Below, piece after piece: positions 41,967 through 49,007 of a stretch of 64,000 bases of DNA (positions are counted from its first letter, which is position 1; each line of letters starts with the position of its first letter). Below the pieces are notes generated by a model, which was not told where the DNA came from, ran no database searches, and saw only the letters and a list, made by a program, of their open reading frames with translations. Source of the DNA: Methanocaldococcus sp. (GTDB lineage Archaea > AGJL01 > Methanococci > Methanococcales > Methanocaldococcaceae); assembly GCF_024490875.1 (NCBI RefSeq), contig NZ_JACCLX010000008.1, positions 1-64,000 on the forward strand. The letters run 5' to 3'. The position numbers were made by a program, and so were the translations under genes.

Positions 41967-42347
41967 ATGTCTCAAAGTATTGAAGATTACTTAGAAAAAA
42001 TATATATTTTTACTAAAGAAAATAAGAGACCTATAAAAACTACGGAATTAGCAAAGTTGTTAAATATAAAGCCATCAGCAGTTACAAGTATGGCACAAAA
42101 ATTAAGTAAGTTAGGATATGTTGAGTATGAGCCATATATAGGAATAACATTAACAAAAAAAGGATTAGATCTTGCCAAAAAAGTTTTAGATAAACATCAA
42201 ACTTTACAGACATTTTTAGAAAAATATTTAGGAATAGATAAAGAAATGGCGTCAAAAGAGGCGTGTAAATTAGAACATGCAATGTCTGATGAAGTTTTGA
42301 AAAAATTAAAGATATTTATGGAGGAACATAAGGATTTAGTTGAATAA
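41967..42347 (+). CDS. DtxR/MntR-family metal-dependent repressor
   Basis: A 126-residue regulator. An N-terminal winged helix (SIEDYLEKIYIFTKENKRPI, TTELAKLLNIKPSAVTSMAQ) is followed by the dimerisation/metal domain with KLEHAMSDEV (about 102-111), the E-x-x-H type metal ligands. There is no C-terminal SH3-like domain, as in MntR-size members. Adjacent and divergent to feoAB, so iron-responsive repression of iron uptake is the likely role. The ribosome site is GTGATACT. Fe2+ versus Mn2+ cannot be told from sequence. Confidence 0.85.
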   Translation: MSQSIEDYLEKIYIFTKENKRPIKTTELAKLLNIKPSAVTSMAQKLSKLGYVEYEPYIGITLTKKGLDLAKKVLDKHQTLQTFLEKYLGIDKEMASKEACKLEHAMSDEVLKKLKIFMEEHKDLVE

Positions 42348-42354
42348 TAAATAA

Positions 42355-43233
42355 TTATTCTTTCAATTTTTTACCAATTTTTTTTCCTAATTCAACTGCC
42401 TTATCAATATCTTTTACTTTACATTTTATTTCTCCACAGGCTTTTTTTATTTTATCGTTAATAATAACCCCTGCATCTAATTTTAATAACTCATCTTTTT
42501 CATCGTAAATTGCTAATGCACCCATCGGAACGCTACAACCTCCACCAAATTCATTTAAAGCTGTTCTTTCACATGTCGATTCTAAGTAAGTTTTTTCATC
42601 ATTTATTTTTTCTAATATTTTTCTTAAATTTTTGTCATCTTTTTTACAAGCAACGGCTATAATCCCTTGAGCAGGAGCTGGGAGAATATTTAGCCTTTTA
42701 TATTTGAAATCACTCAAATCAATTCCCAATCTTATTATTCCTGCCTCAGATAAGACAATAGCATCATATAAACCTTCTTTTAGTTTTCTTAATCTTGTAT
42801 CTACATTACCTCTGAGGAGTTTAAACTTTACATTTGGATATAGAAACTTTAAAAAAGCTCTCCTTCTTAAACTTGAAGTTCCTATAACTATTTCACTATC
42901 TTCATCAAAATCTTTATCTTTATTCCATATTAACAAATCATAGTAACTGTCTCTTTCTAAAACTGCTCCAATTATTAAGTTTTCATTCCACACAGTTGGA
43001 ATATCCTTTAAACTATGAACAGCTATGTCTATCTCATTATTTAATAATGCCAAGTCCAACTCTTTAGTAAAGACACCAATACCAATATCTGAGAGTTTTT
43101 TATTTAAAACTCTATCCCCAGTAGTTTTTATTATTTTTATTTCAACATCATAACCTAAATTTTTTAGTTTTTCAGATACTTTATTTGCCTGATATAATGC
43201 TAACTTACTGCCTCTCGTTCCTATTCTTATCAT
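42355..43233 (-). CDS. hemC: Porphobilinogen deaminase (hydroxymethylbilane synthase)
   Basis: A 292-residue enzyme that joins four porphobilinogens, on the way to F430, cobamides and haem-like tetrapyrroles. IGTRGSKLALYQANKV (3-18), VHSLKDIPT (about 73-81), GTSSLRRRAFL and RGNVDTRLRKL are family motifs. GGGCSVPMGA (about 229-238) holds the Cys that carries the dipyrromethane cofactor. It is followed by the divergent iron regulator (convergent stop 8 bases away), and dph6 lies 13 bases upstream on the same strand. Confidence 0.95.
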   Translation of the reverse strand: MIRIGTRGSKLALYQANKVSEKLKNLGYDVEIKIIKTTGDRVLNKKLSDIGIGVFTKELDLALLNNEIDIAVHSLKDIPTVWNENLIIGAVLERDSYYDLLIWNKDKDFDEDSEIVIGTSSLRRRAFLKFLYPNVKFKLLRGNVDTRLRKLKEGLYDAIVLSEAGIIRLGIDLSDFKYKRLNILPAPAQGIIAVACKKDDKNLRKILEKINDEKTYLESTCERTALNEFGGGCSVPMGALAIYDEKDELLKLDAGVIINDKIKKACGEIKCKVKDIDKAVELGKKIGKKLKE

Positions 43234-43957: not shown

Positions 43958-44983
43958 TTAAGGATGTAACCCAACATTAAACAACCCTTCTTTTTCATCA
44001 AATCCAAACATTATATTCATGTTTTGTATTGCTTGCCCACTGGCTCCTTTAACTAAGTTATCTATTGCTGAAATAATAACTAATCTATTGTGTTCATCTA
44101 TCTCAAACCCACCAATATCGCAAAAATTCGTTCCTCTAACCCAAGTTAATTTAGGAATCTCTTCTGGAAATATTCTAATAAAAATTTCATCTTTATAAAA
44201 TCTCTCATAAATCTTAATTATATCTTCTCTATCCAAATTTTCAACTAAAAATGTGTGTGCTGTTGTCAAAATACCCCTTGTGATTGGAGCTAAGTGAGGA
44301 GTAAATGAAACTTTAACATTTCCAAGTTTTTTTAATTCTTTTTCTATTTCTGGTGTATGCCTATGAGTTGTTATTTTATATGGGTTTATATTTTCATTCA
44401 CATTAGGGAAATGGGTAGTTTCTGTTGGATTTATTCCTGCTCCACTGACTCCAGTTTTTGAATCAAATATAATTCTCTCCTCAATAATTCTTTCTTTTAC
44501 CAATGGTGCTACTGCTAAAATACATCCAGTAGGAAAACATCCGGGATTTGCTACTAATTGAGCCTCTTTTATTTCTTTTCTATGTAATTCAGGCAATCCA
44601 TAGGCAATTTTTGCATCTACAAGACCCTTATGCTTTATTTTGTAATACTTTTCATACAATGATATATCTTCAAATCTGTAATCGCCACTTAAATCTATAA
44701 CTTTAATTCCCCTCTCAATAAAATCTGGAACTATATTCATTGAAGCTCCGTGTGGTGTTGCAGTAAATATTAAATCTACATCAATTTTATCTAAATCATT
44801 AGTAAAATATAAATTTTCATACTTTTTAATTCCCTTTAAATAAGGATGAACTTTAAAAACATTTTTTCCCTCTTCTTTTCTTGAAGTTATATACTTTACC
44901 TCAACCTCCTTATGGTTTGACAACAATCTTAAGAGTTCCGCCCCTGTATATCCAGTAGCTCCAATTATAGATACTTCAATCAT
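43958..44983 (-). CDS. argC: N-acetyl-gamma-glutamyl-phosphate reductase
   Basis: A 341-residue NADPH-dependent reductase of arginine synthesis. [15 protein letters not shown] (8-22) binds [18 protein letters not shown] (about 144-157) holds the catalytic Cys, and [16 protein letters not shown] and [11 protein letters not shown] follow. In archaea lacking a dedicated LysW route it may also serve other acyl-phosphate substrates. It lies 15 bases downstream of an ArsR-type regulator gene and could be read through from it. Ribosome site GGTGATATT. Confidence 0.95.
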
Positions 44984-44998
44984 AATATCACCAAAAAA

Positions 44999-45283
44999 TT
45001 ATTTCTCAAAGAATTCATTTATTTTATCATTGTCTATATAAAATTTAAATTTTTTTGCTCTATACATTCTCTTAGCCCTTGCATCATCTAATATTAAATA
45101 ACTTTCCACTAAATCAGCCTCTTCCAGTTTTTTTAAATGGGTATATAACACAGGCCTCGATAGATTTAGAGCTTTAGCTAATTCATAAATACTCATCGGT
45201 TTTTTATTCAAAAGATATAATATTTTAATCCTTACGGGATTAGATAATGCTGTTCCTATCTTAACAGTTTTCTCTAAATCCAT
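44999..45283 (-). CDS. ArsR-type winged-helix regulator
   Basis: A 94-residue winged-helix protein: VKIGTALSNPVRIKILYLLN, then the recognition region MSIYELAKALNLSRPVLYTH, and a wing with EADLVESYLI. No Cys metal-box (CxCxxC) is present, so it is ArsR-like in fold but not a classic arsenic sensor. The start is the ATG at 45283 behind GAGTGATTTT; that site overlaps the stop of the membrane protein gene, so the two are coupled. It may control the operon of surface proteins upstream, whose promoter has strong palindromes. Confidence 0.75.
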   Translation of the reverse strand: MDLEKTVKIGTALSNPVRIKILYLLNKKPMSIYELAKALNLSRPVLYTHLKKLEEADLVESYLILDDARAKRMYRAKKFKFYIDNDKINEFFEK

Positions 45284-45287
45284 AAAA

Positions 45288-45524
45288 TCACTCAATTTCT
45301 TCCCATTTTTTCTTTAAATCTTTAACTATTTCTTTTATTTCCTCCACATCTTTCTCTATTTTTGCTAATTCTATTTCACTACTTGGTTTTTTGAATATTA
45401 AGTATCCTAACATTAGTATGATAATTACTAAAAGAATTATTATAATATATTCGTATCCTGCAAATATATGTCCCATTGTTGTATGAGTATCAACAATATG
45501 GTTCATTCCAGCACCATAAGGCAT
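45288..45524 (-). CDS. Small membrane protein with His/Met-rich head and coiled-coil tail
   Basis: A 78-residue protein: an N-terminal segment with several His and Met (PYGAGMNHIVDTHTTMGHIF), one membrane helix of about 22 residues (YIIIILLVIIILMLGYLIF), and a C-terminal charged helix (IELAKIEKDVEEIKEIVKDL) expected to form a coiled coil in the cytoplasm. No family recognised. The His/Met-rich head outside the membrane could bind metal. Start ATG 45524 after GAGGTGGTTACA. It sits between a secreted ferritin-like protein gene and an ArsR-type regulator gene. Confidence 0.6.
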   Translation of the reverse strand: MPYGAGMNHIVDTHTTMGHIFAGYEYIIIILLVIIILMLGYLIFKKPSSEIELAKIEKDVEEIKEIVKDLKKKWEEIE

Positions 45525-45614
45525 TGTAACCACCTCAAAAAATAGGAAAAATTATAAAATAAAAAAGAATTTTAAAATAGAAAATTTGTTATATTTTAAA
45601 ATAAAAAAACTAGA

Positions 45615-47189
45615 TTATTTTGCATAGCCTCTTTCAGTAGGAGTATTTATAATTTGTTCATATTCTTGTTGACTTATATATTGAGGAGTATAGTTTGCAC
45701 CATACTGTTCTAACATTCTGACAAAGGCTCTCATGTGGTTTCTTGAACCTTTCATTAAGTTTTCATATACGAATTTTATATCTTCGTTATCAGTCCTGTT
45801 TATCCAATATTGTAAGTCAGCAATATCTAAATCTTCAATAGTTGCTCCTACTTTCAAAGCATCTACAACTGATTTACTTCCTTCCTCAACTAACTTATTA
45901 TATAGTTCTTCAAATTTTGGATTGGAGAATTTTCCAACTTCGTCAGTTTTTACAGGATCTGTGATATTGTATTTCCTTAATAGACACTTAATAGCATCTG
46001 TGTGAGTTTGCTCAGCATTTGCAATATTCTTGAATATTGGTAATTTCCATTTATTGTATAAGGTTAAATATACATCTCTTGCTAATTTTTCTTCTTCTCT
46101 CATTTCTATTAATCCTTCTTTCTCTTCTTCACTTATTGGCTGTTTAGGCATTTCCATTATCATTTTACACATTAAACTATCATTTATTGCTCCATTACTT
46201 CCTATAATTACTCCCTGTCCTACATTTTGTGGATTTTGGTTATTTTGGGCATTTCTTCCTTTAAATCCTCCTCTTGAAGCATTCATATAGTTCATATGTG
46301 AGATATTTACAGACATTCTACCATTATTATACATTCCATGACCCATTGGATGGAAGTGCATTCTTATTTGCATCATTTGCATTTCTTGGAGTTGAACAAG
46401 AATTTGGTATGCTTCTTGATATTTGTTTTGATTCATTAGTTGTATTGCTGTTTTCAGTTTGTTTTCTAATTCTGTGGTATTTATACCTAGATTTTTTAAT
46501 TTTTCAATTTTCATTTCTATTACTCTAATTCTATTTTGTAACATTAATTTTACTCTTTCATCAGAAATTTTAGATACCTTAACCTTAAATCCTCTATGCA
46601 TTAACATATTTGTGATTTTTGAATAATTACAAAATGGACAAATTGGATTTTCAATAATGTCAATATTTTGTATCCTTAATTGCAATTTTTCAGGATTTAC
46701 TGATAAATTAGTACCATTATATAATAACACTAAATAGTTTCCTTGTTTAATTTTTTCTATACTTTCATTTAATGCTATGTCATCTAATCCATAGCAAACA
46801 CATGCTGATACATTATTTCCAAAAGCATTTTTAAATTGATTTTGGAATCTTAATGTTACATTGGCATTAGTTTCATATCTTGTTTGTCCTCCTACTCTTT
46901 CAACAGTAATTCCAGCATTTTCCAAAGTTGTTGTATAGTTTTCAACAACTGCTAATGGTCCTCCAATTATTATAACCTTATCAGGTTTTAATGATAAGAT
47001 TTTATTTACAACATTTTCGTCATAAACTCCCCAAGTTGTTGTTACAACTGTAGCATTTAACGCCTTTGCTAATTCAAGAGCAGTTGCCTGATCTGCACAG
47101 TTGTCACTTACTAATATAACATCTGTGGCTGATACTATTGGCAGAGCTACTAATGATAATAATAGAACTACCATTTTCTTTATTATCAT
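45615..47189 (-). CDS. Secreted protein: cell-wall-binding repeat plus ferritin-like DUF2202 domain
   Basis: A 524-residue protein. Residues 1-21 are a signal peptide. Residues 22-115 look like a CWB2-type domain (IIIGGPLAVVE at 73-83 and RVGGQTRYETN at 98-108). Cys pairs (ACVCYG, CPFC) follow. The middle is helical and then Met/His/Asn-rich (QMMQIRMHFHPMGHGMYNNG). The C-terminal 165 residues match a DUF2202 ferritin-like four-helix domain: EEEKLARD, AEQTH (E393, H396) and NHMRAF (H485) are placed like di-iron ligands. It probably sits at the S-layer and binds metal or reacts with peroxide/oxygen; that is inference. The start follows AGGTGATAAGCCT. Confidence 0.7.
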   Translation of the reverse strand: MIIKKMVVLLLSLVALPIVSATDVILVSDNCADQATALELAKALNATVVTTTWGVYDENVVNKILSLKPDKVIIIGGPLAVVENYTTTLENAGITVERVGGQTRYETNANVTLRFQNQFKNAFGNNVSACVCYGLDDIALNESIEKIKQGNYLVLLYNGTNLSVNPEKLQLRIQNIDIIENPICPFCNYSKITNMLMHRGFKVKVSKISDERVKLMLQNRIRVIEMKIEKLKNLGINTTELENKLKTAIQLMNQNKYQEAYQILVQLQEMQMMQIRMHFHPMGHGMYNNGRMSVNISHMNYMNASRGGFKGRNAQNNQNPQNVGQGVIIGSNGAINDSLMCKMIMEMPKQPISEEEKEGLIEMREEEKLARDVYLTLYNKWKLPIFKNIANAEQTHTDAIKCLLRKYNITDPVKTDEVGKFSNPKFEELYNKLVEEGSKSVVDALKVGATIEDLDIADLQYWINRTDNEDIKFVYENLMKGSRNHMRAFVRMLEQYGANYTPQYISQQEYEQIINTPTERGYAK

Positions 47190-47224
47190 AGGCTTATCAC
47201 CTGATTATTGTTTATATTTTATTT

Positions 47225-47512
47225 TTATCTATACCATCCCCAACAACATCCACATCTACAATAACCACAGCAAGGACAATAACCATATGGAGGATGGTAA
47301 TTATCAAAAGGTGAATGGTAGTAGTCGCTAATGTTATCATTAATTGAATTATCATTTGGGTAAGGGTAATAATGAGAAGGATAGTAATAATTTGGAGGAT
47401 AGGCATGATAGCCCCAATATCCATAAGGAACCCATGCAAATACAACGCCTATCAAACAAAGAACCCCCAAAGCAACGATACCTTTTAGCATTTTACTTTT
47501 AAAAAGTGTCAT
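47225..47512 (-). CDS. Small secreted Tyr/Pro- and Cys-rich protein
   Basis: A 95-residue protein. The signal peptide (MTLFKSKMLKGIVALGVLCL, then IGVVFA) is followed by a low-complexity part rich in Tyr, Pro, Asn and His (PPNYYYPSHYYPYPNDN) and a terminal cysteine cluster, GYCPCCGYCRCGCCWGWYR, with seven Cys in 19 residues. Such an end could bind metals or crosslink. No family is recognised. The ATG at 47512 follows AGGGGGAATAAA and leaves the signal peptide intact; a longer frame would add 13 polar residues. It is the first gene of the operon with the ferritin-like protein. Confidence 0.6.
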   Translation of the reverse strand: MTLFKSKMLKGIVALGVLCLIGVVFAWVPYGYWGYHAYPPNYYYPSHYYPYPNDNSINDNISDYYHSPFDNYHPPYGYCPCCGYCRCGCCWGWYR

Positions 47513-47553
47513 TTTATTCCCCCTATTAATATCTGTTTTATTATTTAACAATA

Positions 47554-47571
47554 TGTAGTATTTTTACTACA
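47554..47571. promoter_or_regulatory. 18-bp palindrome at the surface-protein operon promoter
   Basis: TGTAGTA-TTTT-TACTACA has perfect 7-bp arms. On the minus strand a TATA-like ATATAAATATATG lies at about 47590-47603, so the palindrome lies around or just after the predicted transcription start, a usual repressor position. The ArsR-type protein at 44999 is a candidate binder. Confidence 0.55.
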
Positions 47572-47577
47572 CATTAT

Positions 47578-47593
47578 TATGTTATGCAACATA
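47578..47593. promoter_or_regulatory. Second palindrome next to the TATA region
   Basis: TATGTT-ATGC-AACATA has perfect 6-bp arms and overlaps the edge of the TATA-like element of the same promoter. Together with the palindrome at 47554-47571 it suggests two protein sites, though short AT-rich palindromes can arise by chance. Confidence 0.4.
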
Positions 47594-47699
47594 TATTTAT
47601 ATATTACGGAGTTGTTCAAATATTAATCACAACTGTAAAAATAAAAAATTAAGGTAAATTTAAAACAAATTAAATCAAATTAAAAATAGAAATGGAAAA

Positions 47700-49007
47700 T
47701 TACAATAAATGAGGGGGAACAATATCTTTATAAATCAAATCTGCATAAGTTTCTCTTTCTCTAATTATGAATACTCCCTTTTTACTTGTTAAAATCATTC
47801 TTGGTCTTCCTCTTGCATTGTAGTTGTTAGCCATACTTATTCCATAAGCACCAACATCAAATATAGCCAATACATCTCCTACTTCAACTTTGTCCAATTC
47901 TCTATCTCTACCAAAAACATCACTACTTTCACAAAGTCCTCCTGCTATACTGACAATTTCTTTTTCATCCTTAACTTTACAGTTTATTATGTGATGATAT
48001 GCATCATACATAGCAGGTCTCATCATATCGTTCATTCCAGTATCAATCATAACCCATTTTGTTACTGGTGTTTCTTTTATGTGATGAACCTTCCCCAATA
48101 AATAGCCAGCAGTGGCAACTATACTTCTACCTGGTTCTAATATTAGGTTTGGCATTTTAACTTTATCACTATATTTTAGCATCGTATCTATTATTGCGTC
48201 TGCCAAATCTTTTGGAGTAGGTATTTTTTTATCTTTTTCATAAGGAATTCCTAAACCTCCTCCTAAATTAACATCCTCTATTTCTATTCCCTCATTTTTT
48301 AATTCTACGACAAAATCCATAACTTTTCTTGTTTCTTCAATAAATGGACTTATATCTGTCAATTGAGAACCAATATGACAATGAACTCCAACCACATTAA
48401 CATTTTCCATTTCCATAGCCATTTTTATAGCCTTTAATGCCAGACCACTTTCAACATCCAATCCAAATTTGTTCTTTTTTAAGCCAGTTGAAATCTTTGG
48501 ATGTGTTTTTGGATCTACATTTGGATTTATTCTAAAAGCTACATTTGCTACTTTTCCCAAATCTTTTGCAGTTTCATTTATTAAAATTAATTCACTTATA
48601 CTATCTACATTAAAGGCTCTAATATTTGCCTCAATTCCCATTATAATTTCTTCTTTTGTTTTACAGTTTCCATTAAAAACTATTTTTTTTGAAGGAACAT
48701 TTGATAACTTTGCTATATATAGTTCTCCTCCACTGACTACATCAGCCCCACATCCTAATTTAGTTAATAATCTTGTAATAGCCAAGTTAGCGTTTGCTTT
48801 ATATGCGTAGGCAAGAATAAAATCTTTTCCAGTCTCTTCTTTCCATCTTTTAAACGCCTCAAAATATCTATTTACATTTATTTTAATTTGCTCCTCTGAC
48901 ATAACATACAAAGGTGTTCCAAACTTTTCAGCCAATTCTATAGCATCATAACCATCTATAAAAAATCTCCCTTCTTTTATCTCTACTGTATCATTACCTA
49001 AAAACAT
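47700..49007 (-). CDS. lysA: Diaminopimelate decarboxylase
   Basis: A 435-residue fold-type III PLP enzyme, the last step of lysine synthesis. AYAYKANAN (about 64-72) holds the PLP Lys, GVHCHIGSQ and NLGGGLGIPY follow, EPGRSIVATAGY binds phosphate, and GGLCESSDVFGRDR carries the catalytic Cys and Asp. The upstream lysine-pathway enzyme DapA is encoded at 51109, but in a separate unit. The start follows AGGTGAAAAG. The region just upstream is full of hairpin repeats. Confidence 0.96.
   Translation of the reverse strand: MFLGNDTVEIKEGRFFIDGYDAIELAEKFGTPLYVMSEEQIKINVNRYFEAFKRWKEETGKDFILAYAYKANANLAITRLLTKLGCGADVVSGGELYIAKLSNVPSKKIVFNGNCKTKEEIIMGIEANIRAFNVDSISELILINETAKDLGKVANVAFRINPNVDPKTHPKISTGLKKNKFGLDVESGLALKAIKMAMEMENVNVVGVHCHIGSQLTDISPFIEETRKVMDFVVELKNEGIEIEDVNLGGGLGIPYEKDKKIPTPKDLADAIIDTMLKYSDKVKMPNLILEPGRSIVATAGYLLGKVHHIKETPVTKWVMIDTGMNDMMRPAMYDAYHHIINCKVKDEKEIVSIAGGLCESSDVFGRDRELDKVEVGDVLAIFDVGAYGISMANNYNARGRPRMILTSKKGVFIIRERETYADLIYKDIVPPHLL

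Follow-up and report, generated by a model that had tools for sequence, protein, structure and literature searches.

A candidate ArsR-repressed module of surface proteins conserved in the Methanococcales

Introduction

A 64,000-nucleotide stretch of DNA (the window), from contig C8 of a 1.47 Mb Methanocaldococcus genome with relatives including Methanocaldococcus sp. SG1, carries four consecutive minus-strand genes between argC (43958-44983) and lysA (47700-49007). A sequence-only reading of the window had proposed that these genes, together with two perfect palindromes in front of them, form a system for metal capture or oxidant defence at the S-layer. The locus thus raises the question of whether such a system exists, how it might be controlled, and which of the two functions it may serve. 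Here, the four genes were compared with 35 Methanococcales genomes besides the window genome (36 in all). The features considered, in window coordinates, are as follows.

47225..47512, minus strand: small secreted Cys/Tyr-rich protein, with 7 Cys in its last 19 residues
45615..47189, minus strand: fusion protein with signal peptide, CWB2 domains, Met/His-rich disordered linker and DUF2202 (Pfam, AF2/Foldseek)
45618..46172, minus strand: DUF2202 ferritin-like domain of the fusion protein, residues 340-524 (Pfam, E=3e-65)
45288..45524, minus strand: MEM, a short N-terminal head, one TM helix and a conserved C-terminal Lys/Glu helix (alignment)
44999..45295, minus strand: ArsR-fold winged-helix regulator without Cys (HTH_5, E=3e-16)
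47554..47571, no strand assigned: predicted ArsR operator TGTAGTA-AAAA-TACTACA, with 7-bp perfect arms, the core of TATGTAGn8CTACATA
47610..47634, minus strand: possible upstream element GTTGT-n13-ACAACT directly before BRE/TATA (weak)

Results

Gene content of the locus

All four genes, with the parts described for them, and the palindrome are present in the sequence. The set is likely to be one operon, with gaps of 35 nt between the Cys-rich peptide gene and the fusion gene and of 90 nt between the fusion gene and the MEM gene; the MEM and ArsR genes are adjacent or overlapping, depending on the chosen ArsR start, and argC follows ArsR after 15 nt. A small winged-helix protein encoded on the plus strand at 41967-42347, 2.7 kb from the ArsR gene, resembles by eye the N-terminal part of DtxR/MntR-type metal regulators; between the two lie a gene at 42355-43233 (hemC-like by eye), a diphthamide synthase gene, and argC.

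The first gene probably starts at ATG 47512, matching orthologue starts, to give a 95-aa secreted protein with 17 Tyr. Its C-terminal 19 residues, GYCPCCGYCRCGCCWGWYR, contain the seven Cys that had drawn attention to it, a density not approached by the other window ORFs, none of which has more than 4 Cys in 19 residues (72 ORFs called, at least 60 aa). Orthologues of 98-100% identity are limited to G005 and G006. In other species, the first-gene position is occupied by dissimilar secreted Cys-rich proteins that share little sequence; most end in Cys clusters, several of them CCPCGCC-type tails, or have a high Cys and His content (G003, G009, G034). Representative tails are CPCCGYCRCGCCWGW in the window, CCPCGCCYW in G001, and CHCHCGCCCW in G004. 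A search for the Cys-rich peptides in plasmids and viral contigs returned no match. At one locus in G003 (L089:3352-8799), several tandem small secreted proteins with a near-identical N-terminus (e.g., MNIFKSNILKGFAAVAMLCMIGALVAEPVALGD) alternate with small membrane proteins.

The second gene encodes a 524-aa protein with a signal peptide, in which Pfam, AF2, and Foldseek recovered the CWB2-like repeat, Met/His-rich middle, and DUF2202 domain claimed for it. CW_binding_2 (PF04122) passed its cutoff only barely (25.4 versus 24.9 bits, over 20 of 73 positions), and the AF2 model, with pLDDT of about 90 or higher over most of residues 20-210 or so, gave C. difficile SlpA, Cwp6, and Cwp8 as top Foldseek matches (E 8e-7 to 8e-5), confirming at the level of the predicted structure a CWB2 fold of the C. 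difficile SlpA/Cwp type. The CWB2 domains are followed by a helical region and then by a Met/His/Asn-rich linker, disordered in the model, with 9 Met and 4 His in 70 residues. DUF2202 (PF09968) was matched at 219 bits (gathering score, 22 bits) over 161 of 162 positions. Its modelled structure (pLDDT, 95.7) superposes on MJ0754 (3q4n/3q4r) with an rmsd of 0.6 and a TM score of 0.90-0.99, and weaker Foldseek matches were to aldehyde deformylating oxygenase, Dps, bacterioferritin, and symerythrin, so that the ferritin-like fold is confirmed in the model. Across 17 DUF2202 sequences, E28, E54-x-x-H57, E113, and H146 (alignment numbering) are invariant, but where the ferritin-type pattern (E, ExxH, E, ExxH) calls for a final ExxH, these sequences have SxxH; the predicted ferritin-type two-metal site is therefore likely rather than proven.

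Conservation of a larger gene cluster

The co-occurrence expected of a conserved system was found among the 35 genomes, and the system indeed exists and extends beyond the genes first described. The order recurring across genera consists of genes for a Cys-rich secreted protein, a CWB2 protein, a DUF2202 protein, a small secreted protein (WDCP), and then a NapH-type membrane protein, or two of these, in which Fer4_5 and 4Fe-4S motifs are present. The sequence-only reading had correctly picked out four genes of this cluster and had missed the WDCP and NapH partners, which in the window genome lie on another contig. Besides Methanocaldococcus, the full cluster extends to members of other genera (G022, G033, G034); G014 and G016 have a reduced CWB2-WDCP-NapH form, and G025, G027, G028, and G030-G032 have a WDCP-NapH form. 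The cluster is decayed or absent in G002 and G035, although MEM-ArsR is kept in both. The WDCP gene of the reduced cluster in G002 (L104) has an in-frame stop and MEM-ArsR is retained elsewhere in that genome, where the module is apparently decaying.

In the window genome, WDCP and two NapH genes are located at the Tsr3/L40e locus on contig C3, so that DUF2202 is found next to the CWB2 gene and away from NapH; in G005 and G006, the Tsr3/L40e locus includes DUF2202 as well. In all three genomes, the WDCP-NapH operon is unlinked and without the operator described below, so its co-regulation with the four genes is conjectural, a point against the main reading given below. Both NapH-type proteins of the window genome match Fer4_5 and have CX3CP motifs; they score 85.6 and 87.6 bits with the NapH/MauN model TIGR02163 (cutoff, 213 bits). 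WDCP had no credible family match in Pfam or NCBIfam; one of its conserved stretches (e.g., L047:7121-7753), flanked by conserved Cys, matches the pattern of an EF-hand-like calcium loop.

Most relatives encode the CWB2/Met-rich protein and the DUF2202 protein in separate genes, and the separate DUF2202 proteins usually carry a lipoprotein signal (VLLAGC-type). The two are fused in the window genome and in G009, which establishes a direct link between them in two species; because they are fused and often adjacent, the comparison indicates that they cooperate outside the membrane. An S-layer location of the fusion protein is plausible from its CWB2 fold and signal peptide, and we know of no CWB2 ligand among cell-wall polymers in methanogens. 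At other DUF2202 loci, plasmid-borne copies had no consistent partner, and three Desulfurococcales loci (L036, L038, L040) had different neighbours, with no NapH seen.

A predicted operator for the ArsR-type regulator

The last gene encodes a protein of 94 aa (ATG 45283) or 98 aa (TTG 45295) whose winged helix is of ArsR type, as had been claimed (HTH_5, 59.6 versus 22 bits); its orthologues are 62-100% identical. It contains no Cys, and no Cys or metal site is conserved among 16 orthologues. The NCBIfam metalloregulator model NF033788 was missed (48.7 versus a cutoff of 55), and a metal-responsive ArsR was rejected as the default reading for lack of Cys and of conserved metal residues. Upstream of it, MEM is a 78-aa protein when read from the orthologue-like start at ATG 45524 (81 aa from the GTG start chosen previously). 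The single helix and His/Met-rich head reported for MEM are both real in the window protein, but the head varies freely among orthologues, which rules out a conserved His/Met sensor, whereas the C-terminal Lys/Glu-rich helix is strongly conserved. With a Cys-free ArsR and an unconserved MEM head, a metal-sensing switch is doubtful.

MEM and ArsR are neighbours in all 17 pairs found (16 genomes, with MEM searched in the 36 Methanococcales genomes). The pair is within or beside the cluster in G000, G003, G005, G006, G009, G022, and G033, and elsewhere in the others. From this adjacency, we infer that MEM is the membrane partner of ArsR, and MEM rather than ArsR may be the component that receives the signal. 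A second ArsR-like regulator, 35-39% identical, was noted in G013 (L078:5218-5719) and G008 (L079:1101-1602), preceded in both by a small protein in which a short head is joined to a single TM helix and a charged helix; the membrane-protein/ArsR layout is perhaps general, judging from these loci.

The palindrome at 47554 occurs in its exact form once in the 1.47 Mb genome. With at most two mismatches, it precedes the first gene of the cluster in 12 of 13 ArsR-bearing genomes and in none of nine genomes without ArsR (Fisher p=2e-5, uncorrected for ancestry). The sole ArsR-bearing exception is G002, with its decayed cluster. Among the genomes without ArsR, a site with three mismatches is present in G008, a draft in which no ArsR orthologue was detected, and the operator is absent from the other eight. 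The association also holds within one genus (g3), where G022 has both regulator and operator and the other members tested have neither. For comparison, 0.55% of random 206-bp segments from the same loci reach at most two mismatches, a background inflated by the real sites. The operator is also found before the relocated MEM-ArsR genes in G001 and G004, with more mismatches in G011, and before a second MEM-ArsR pair in G033. It begins 27-31 nt (about 28) after the TATA start in nearly all genomes (20 nt in G003; G033 gave no TATA match) and so coincides with the expected start of transcription, a position suited to a repressor. The palindrome is thus likely to be the ArsR operator, and the predicted binding of the 44999 protein to it is strongly supported by cross-genome comparison, making this repressor-operator assignment about as strong as comparison alone allows.

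Both palindromes of the earlier description exist, and only the one at 47554 is conserved in other species. The second inverted repeat, TATGTT-GCAT-AACATA with 6-bp arms (TATGTTGCATAACATA), was rejected as a conserved element, being limited to the closest genomes. A further candidate, GTTGT-n13-ACAACT, has GTTGTG..CACAACT-like counterparts upstream of TATA in G001, G004, and G007 and four exact sites in the genome, one of them within the fusion gene; it was judged weak, with 30-34 matches per strand at one mismatch versus 15-18 for a reversed-pattern control.

Oxidant-defence genes beside the cluster in relatives

FprA and hemerythrin genes are contiguous with the cluster in G004, G007, G011, and G013. 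The first of these is taken to be M. jannaschii, its DUF2202 gene being identical to the PDB MJ0754 sequence, and the other three are congeners. Pfam identifies rubrerythrin next to them in G013, a rubrerythrin-like gene starts at the matching place in G007 and G011, and G011 also has a carboxymuconolactone-decarboxylase-family gene. M. jannaschii FprA (MJ_0748) reduces O2 with F420H2 (PMC6616113). FprA is universal in the Methanococcales and is located elsewhere in the window genome, so the oxidant link is drawn from relatives only. Of the two functions put forward by the sequence-only reading, oxidant defence is favoured by these neighbours, while a core function in metal capture or sensing is not supported, given the Cys-free regulator, the variable MEM head, and the missed metalloregulator cutoff.

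Discussion

We put at roughly 50% the probability that the four genes supply the surface components and the control of a stress module, conserved in the Methanococcales, that handles oxidants on the outer side of the membrane and is repressed by a membrane-controlled ArsR. Regulation of the module as predicted is well supported by the comparison; its biochemistry we infer. The ArsR-like protein, as the comparison suggests, would bind the palindrome at the transcription start and keep the module off. MEM would probably sense a surface or redox condition, its conserved cytoplasmic helix releasing or capturing ArsR. Once the module is on, the Cys-rich protein and the CWB2-Met/His-DUF2202 protein would be exported, and a probable two-metal centre in DUF2202 would reduce O2 or peroxide, or oxidise and trap iron, outside the membrane. 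The electrons may be supplied from the cell interior by the NapH-type [4Fe-4S] membrane proteins, WDCP serving as the outer partner. The specific scheme in which a quinone-free archaeon sends electrons via NapH-type proteins to an S-layer ferritin-like reductase, under a new MEM/ArsR capture-release switch, is put forward tentatively and with low confidence.

The same parts could instead serve surface defence against copper or other soft metals, with the Cys-rich peptide and Met/His linker binding Cu(I)-like metals outside, the NapH-like proteins acting as CcoG-like metal reductases, and DUF2202 as a metal store. Cys clusters and Met/His-rich segments do recur at matching positions across species, one bacterial DUF2202 locus includes a Metal_resist-like protein and an ECF sigma factor, and NapH belongs to the superfamily of CcoG, described as a cupric reductase. 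However, the CcoG model scores far under its own cutoff and below the NapH family, no metal-transporting gene was recognised in the cluster, neither ArsR nor the MEM head offers a conserved metal site, and the neighbours in relatives are oxygen-defence genes; a soft-metal function is possible but rather doubtful. Still less probable is a role in envelope or S-layer maintenance, in which the CWB2 and Cys-rich proteins would play a structural part under disulfide control, and DUF2202 would be a structural helix bundle with bound zinc and no redox enzyme. The CWB2 fold matches C. difficile S-layer proteins, a deposited MJ0754 structure is listed with Zn2+, and G001 has DsbD-like and thioredoxin-like genes at a distance of a few kb; the NapH partners, oxygen-defence neighbours, invariant ferritin-type ligand residues, and a patchy presence across the order, unlike that of a housekeeping S-layer part, argue against it. 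A chance grouping of four unrelated genes between argC and lysA, which the biosynthetic flanking genes and the separation from WDCP-NapH in the window genome might suggest, is highly improbable, contradicted as it is by the MEM-ArsR pairing, by the recurrent placement of these genes with the CWB2/DUF2202 cluster, and by the operator in common.

The proposed module is built from known families, and their combination, with a MEM/ArsR switch and a defined operator, appears to be undescribed in the literature searched. M. jannaschii MJ0754 (PDB 3q4n, 3q4o, 3q4q, 3q4r) has the same ferritin-like domain (83-84% identical in fold alignment) and the same gene neighbourhood; unlike it, the window DUF2202 is fused to a CWB2 protein and lacks its own lipoprotein signal. 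A literature search on DUF2202, MJ0754, and neighbouring locus tags found no paper, and no function was assigned to MJ0754 in the literature searched. In M. jannaschii, the lipoprotein N-terminus and the MJ0754 DUF2202 domain are in different frames (L046:5772-6538), unlike in most relatives, the crystallised sequence is without the lipoprotein part, and NapH and WDCP are separated by a TnpB/OrfB-type (IS605-like) gene (L046:3795-4628). The cluster membrane proteins share Fer4_5 CX3CP motifs and 4Fe-4S clusters with NapH/MauN-type polyferredoxins (with NosR and CcoG), but score 86-88 versus 213 bits, have no NapG or quinol partner seen, and are encoded beside WDCP and DUF2202. SdpR/SdpI is an ArsR-type autorepressor sequestered by a membrane protein. 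The likeness to it is one of layout, an ArsR-type repressor gene adjoining a membrane-protein gene with apparent autoregulation in some species; SdpI is multi-pass, whereas MEM is single-helix and unrelated, with no SdpI match, and ArsR missed the SdpR model NF033789 (40.7 versus 100 bits). The clostridial proteins SlpA, Cwp6, and Cwp8 share the CWB2 fold at about 20% identity with this archaeal protein, and to our knowledge their wall ligand is not to be expected in methanogens. A genetic system exists for M. jannaschii (PMC6616113), making the module testable there.

The FprA, rubrerythrin, and hemerythrin contiguous with the cluster in relatives have no apparent signal peptide and presumably stay in the cytoplasm, whereas the cluster module is exported. 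Strict anaerobes of hydrothermal vents encounter oxygenated seawater, and FprA and rubrerythrin are known methanogen defences thought to be intracellular. If the oxidant-handling reading is true, an outward-facing defence layer would be added to them. For MJ0754, a solved structure without a function, the cluster supplies a genomic setting along with a probable regulator and a defined predicted operator, and the pairing of a small membrane protein with a repressor may represent an archaeal mode of signalling.
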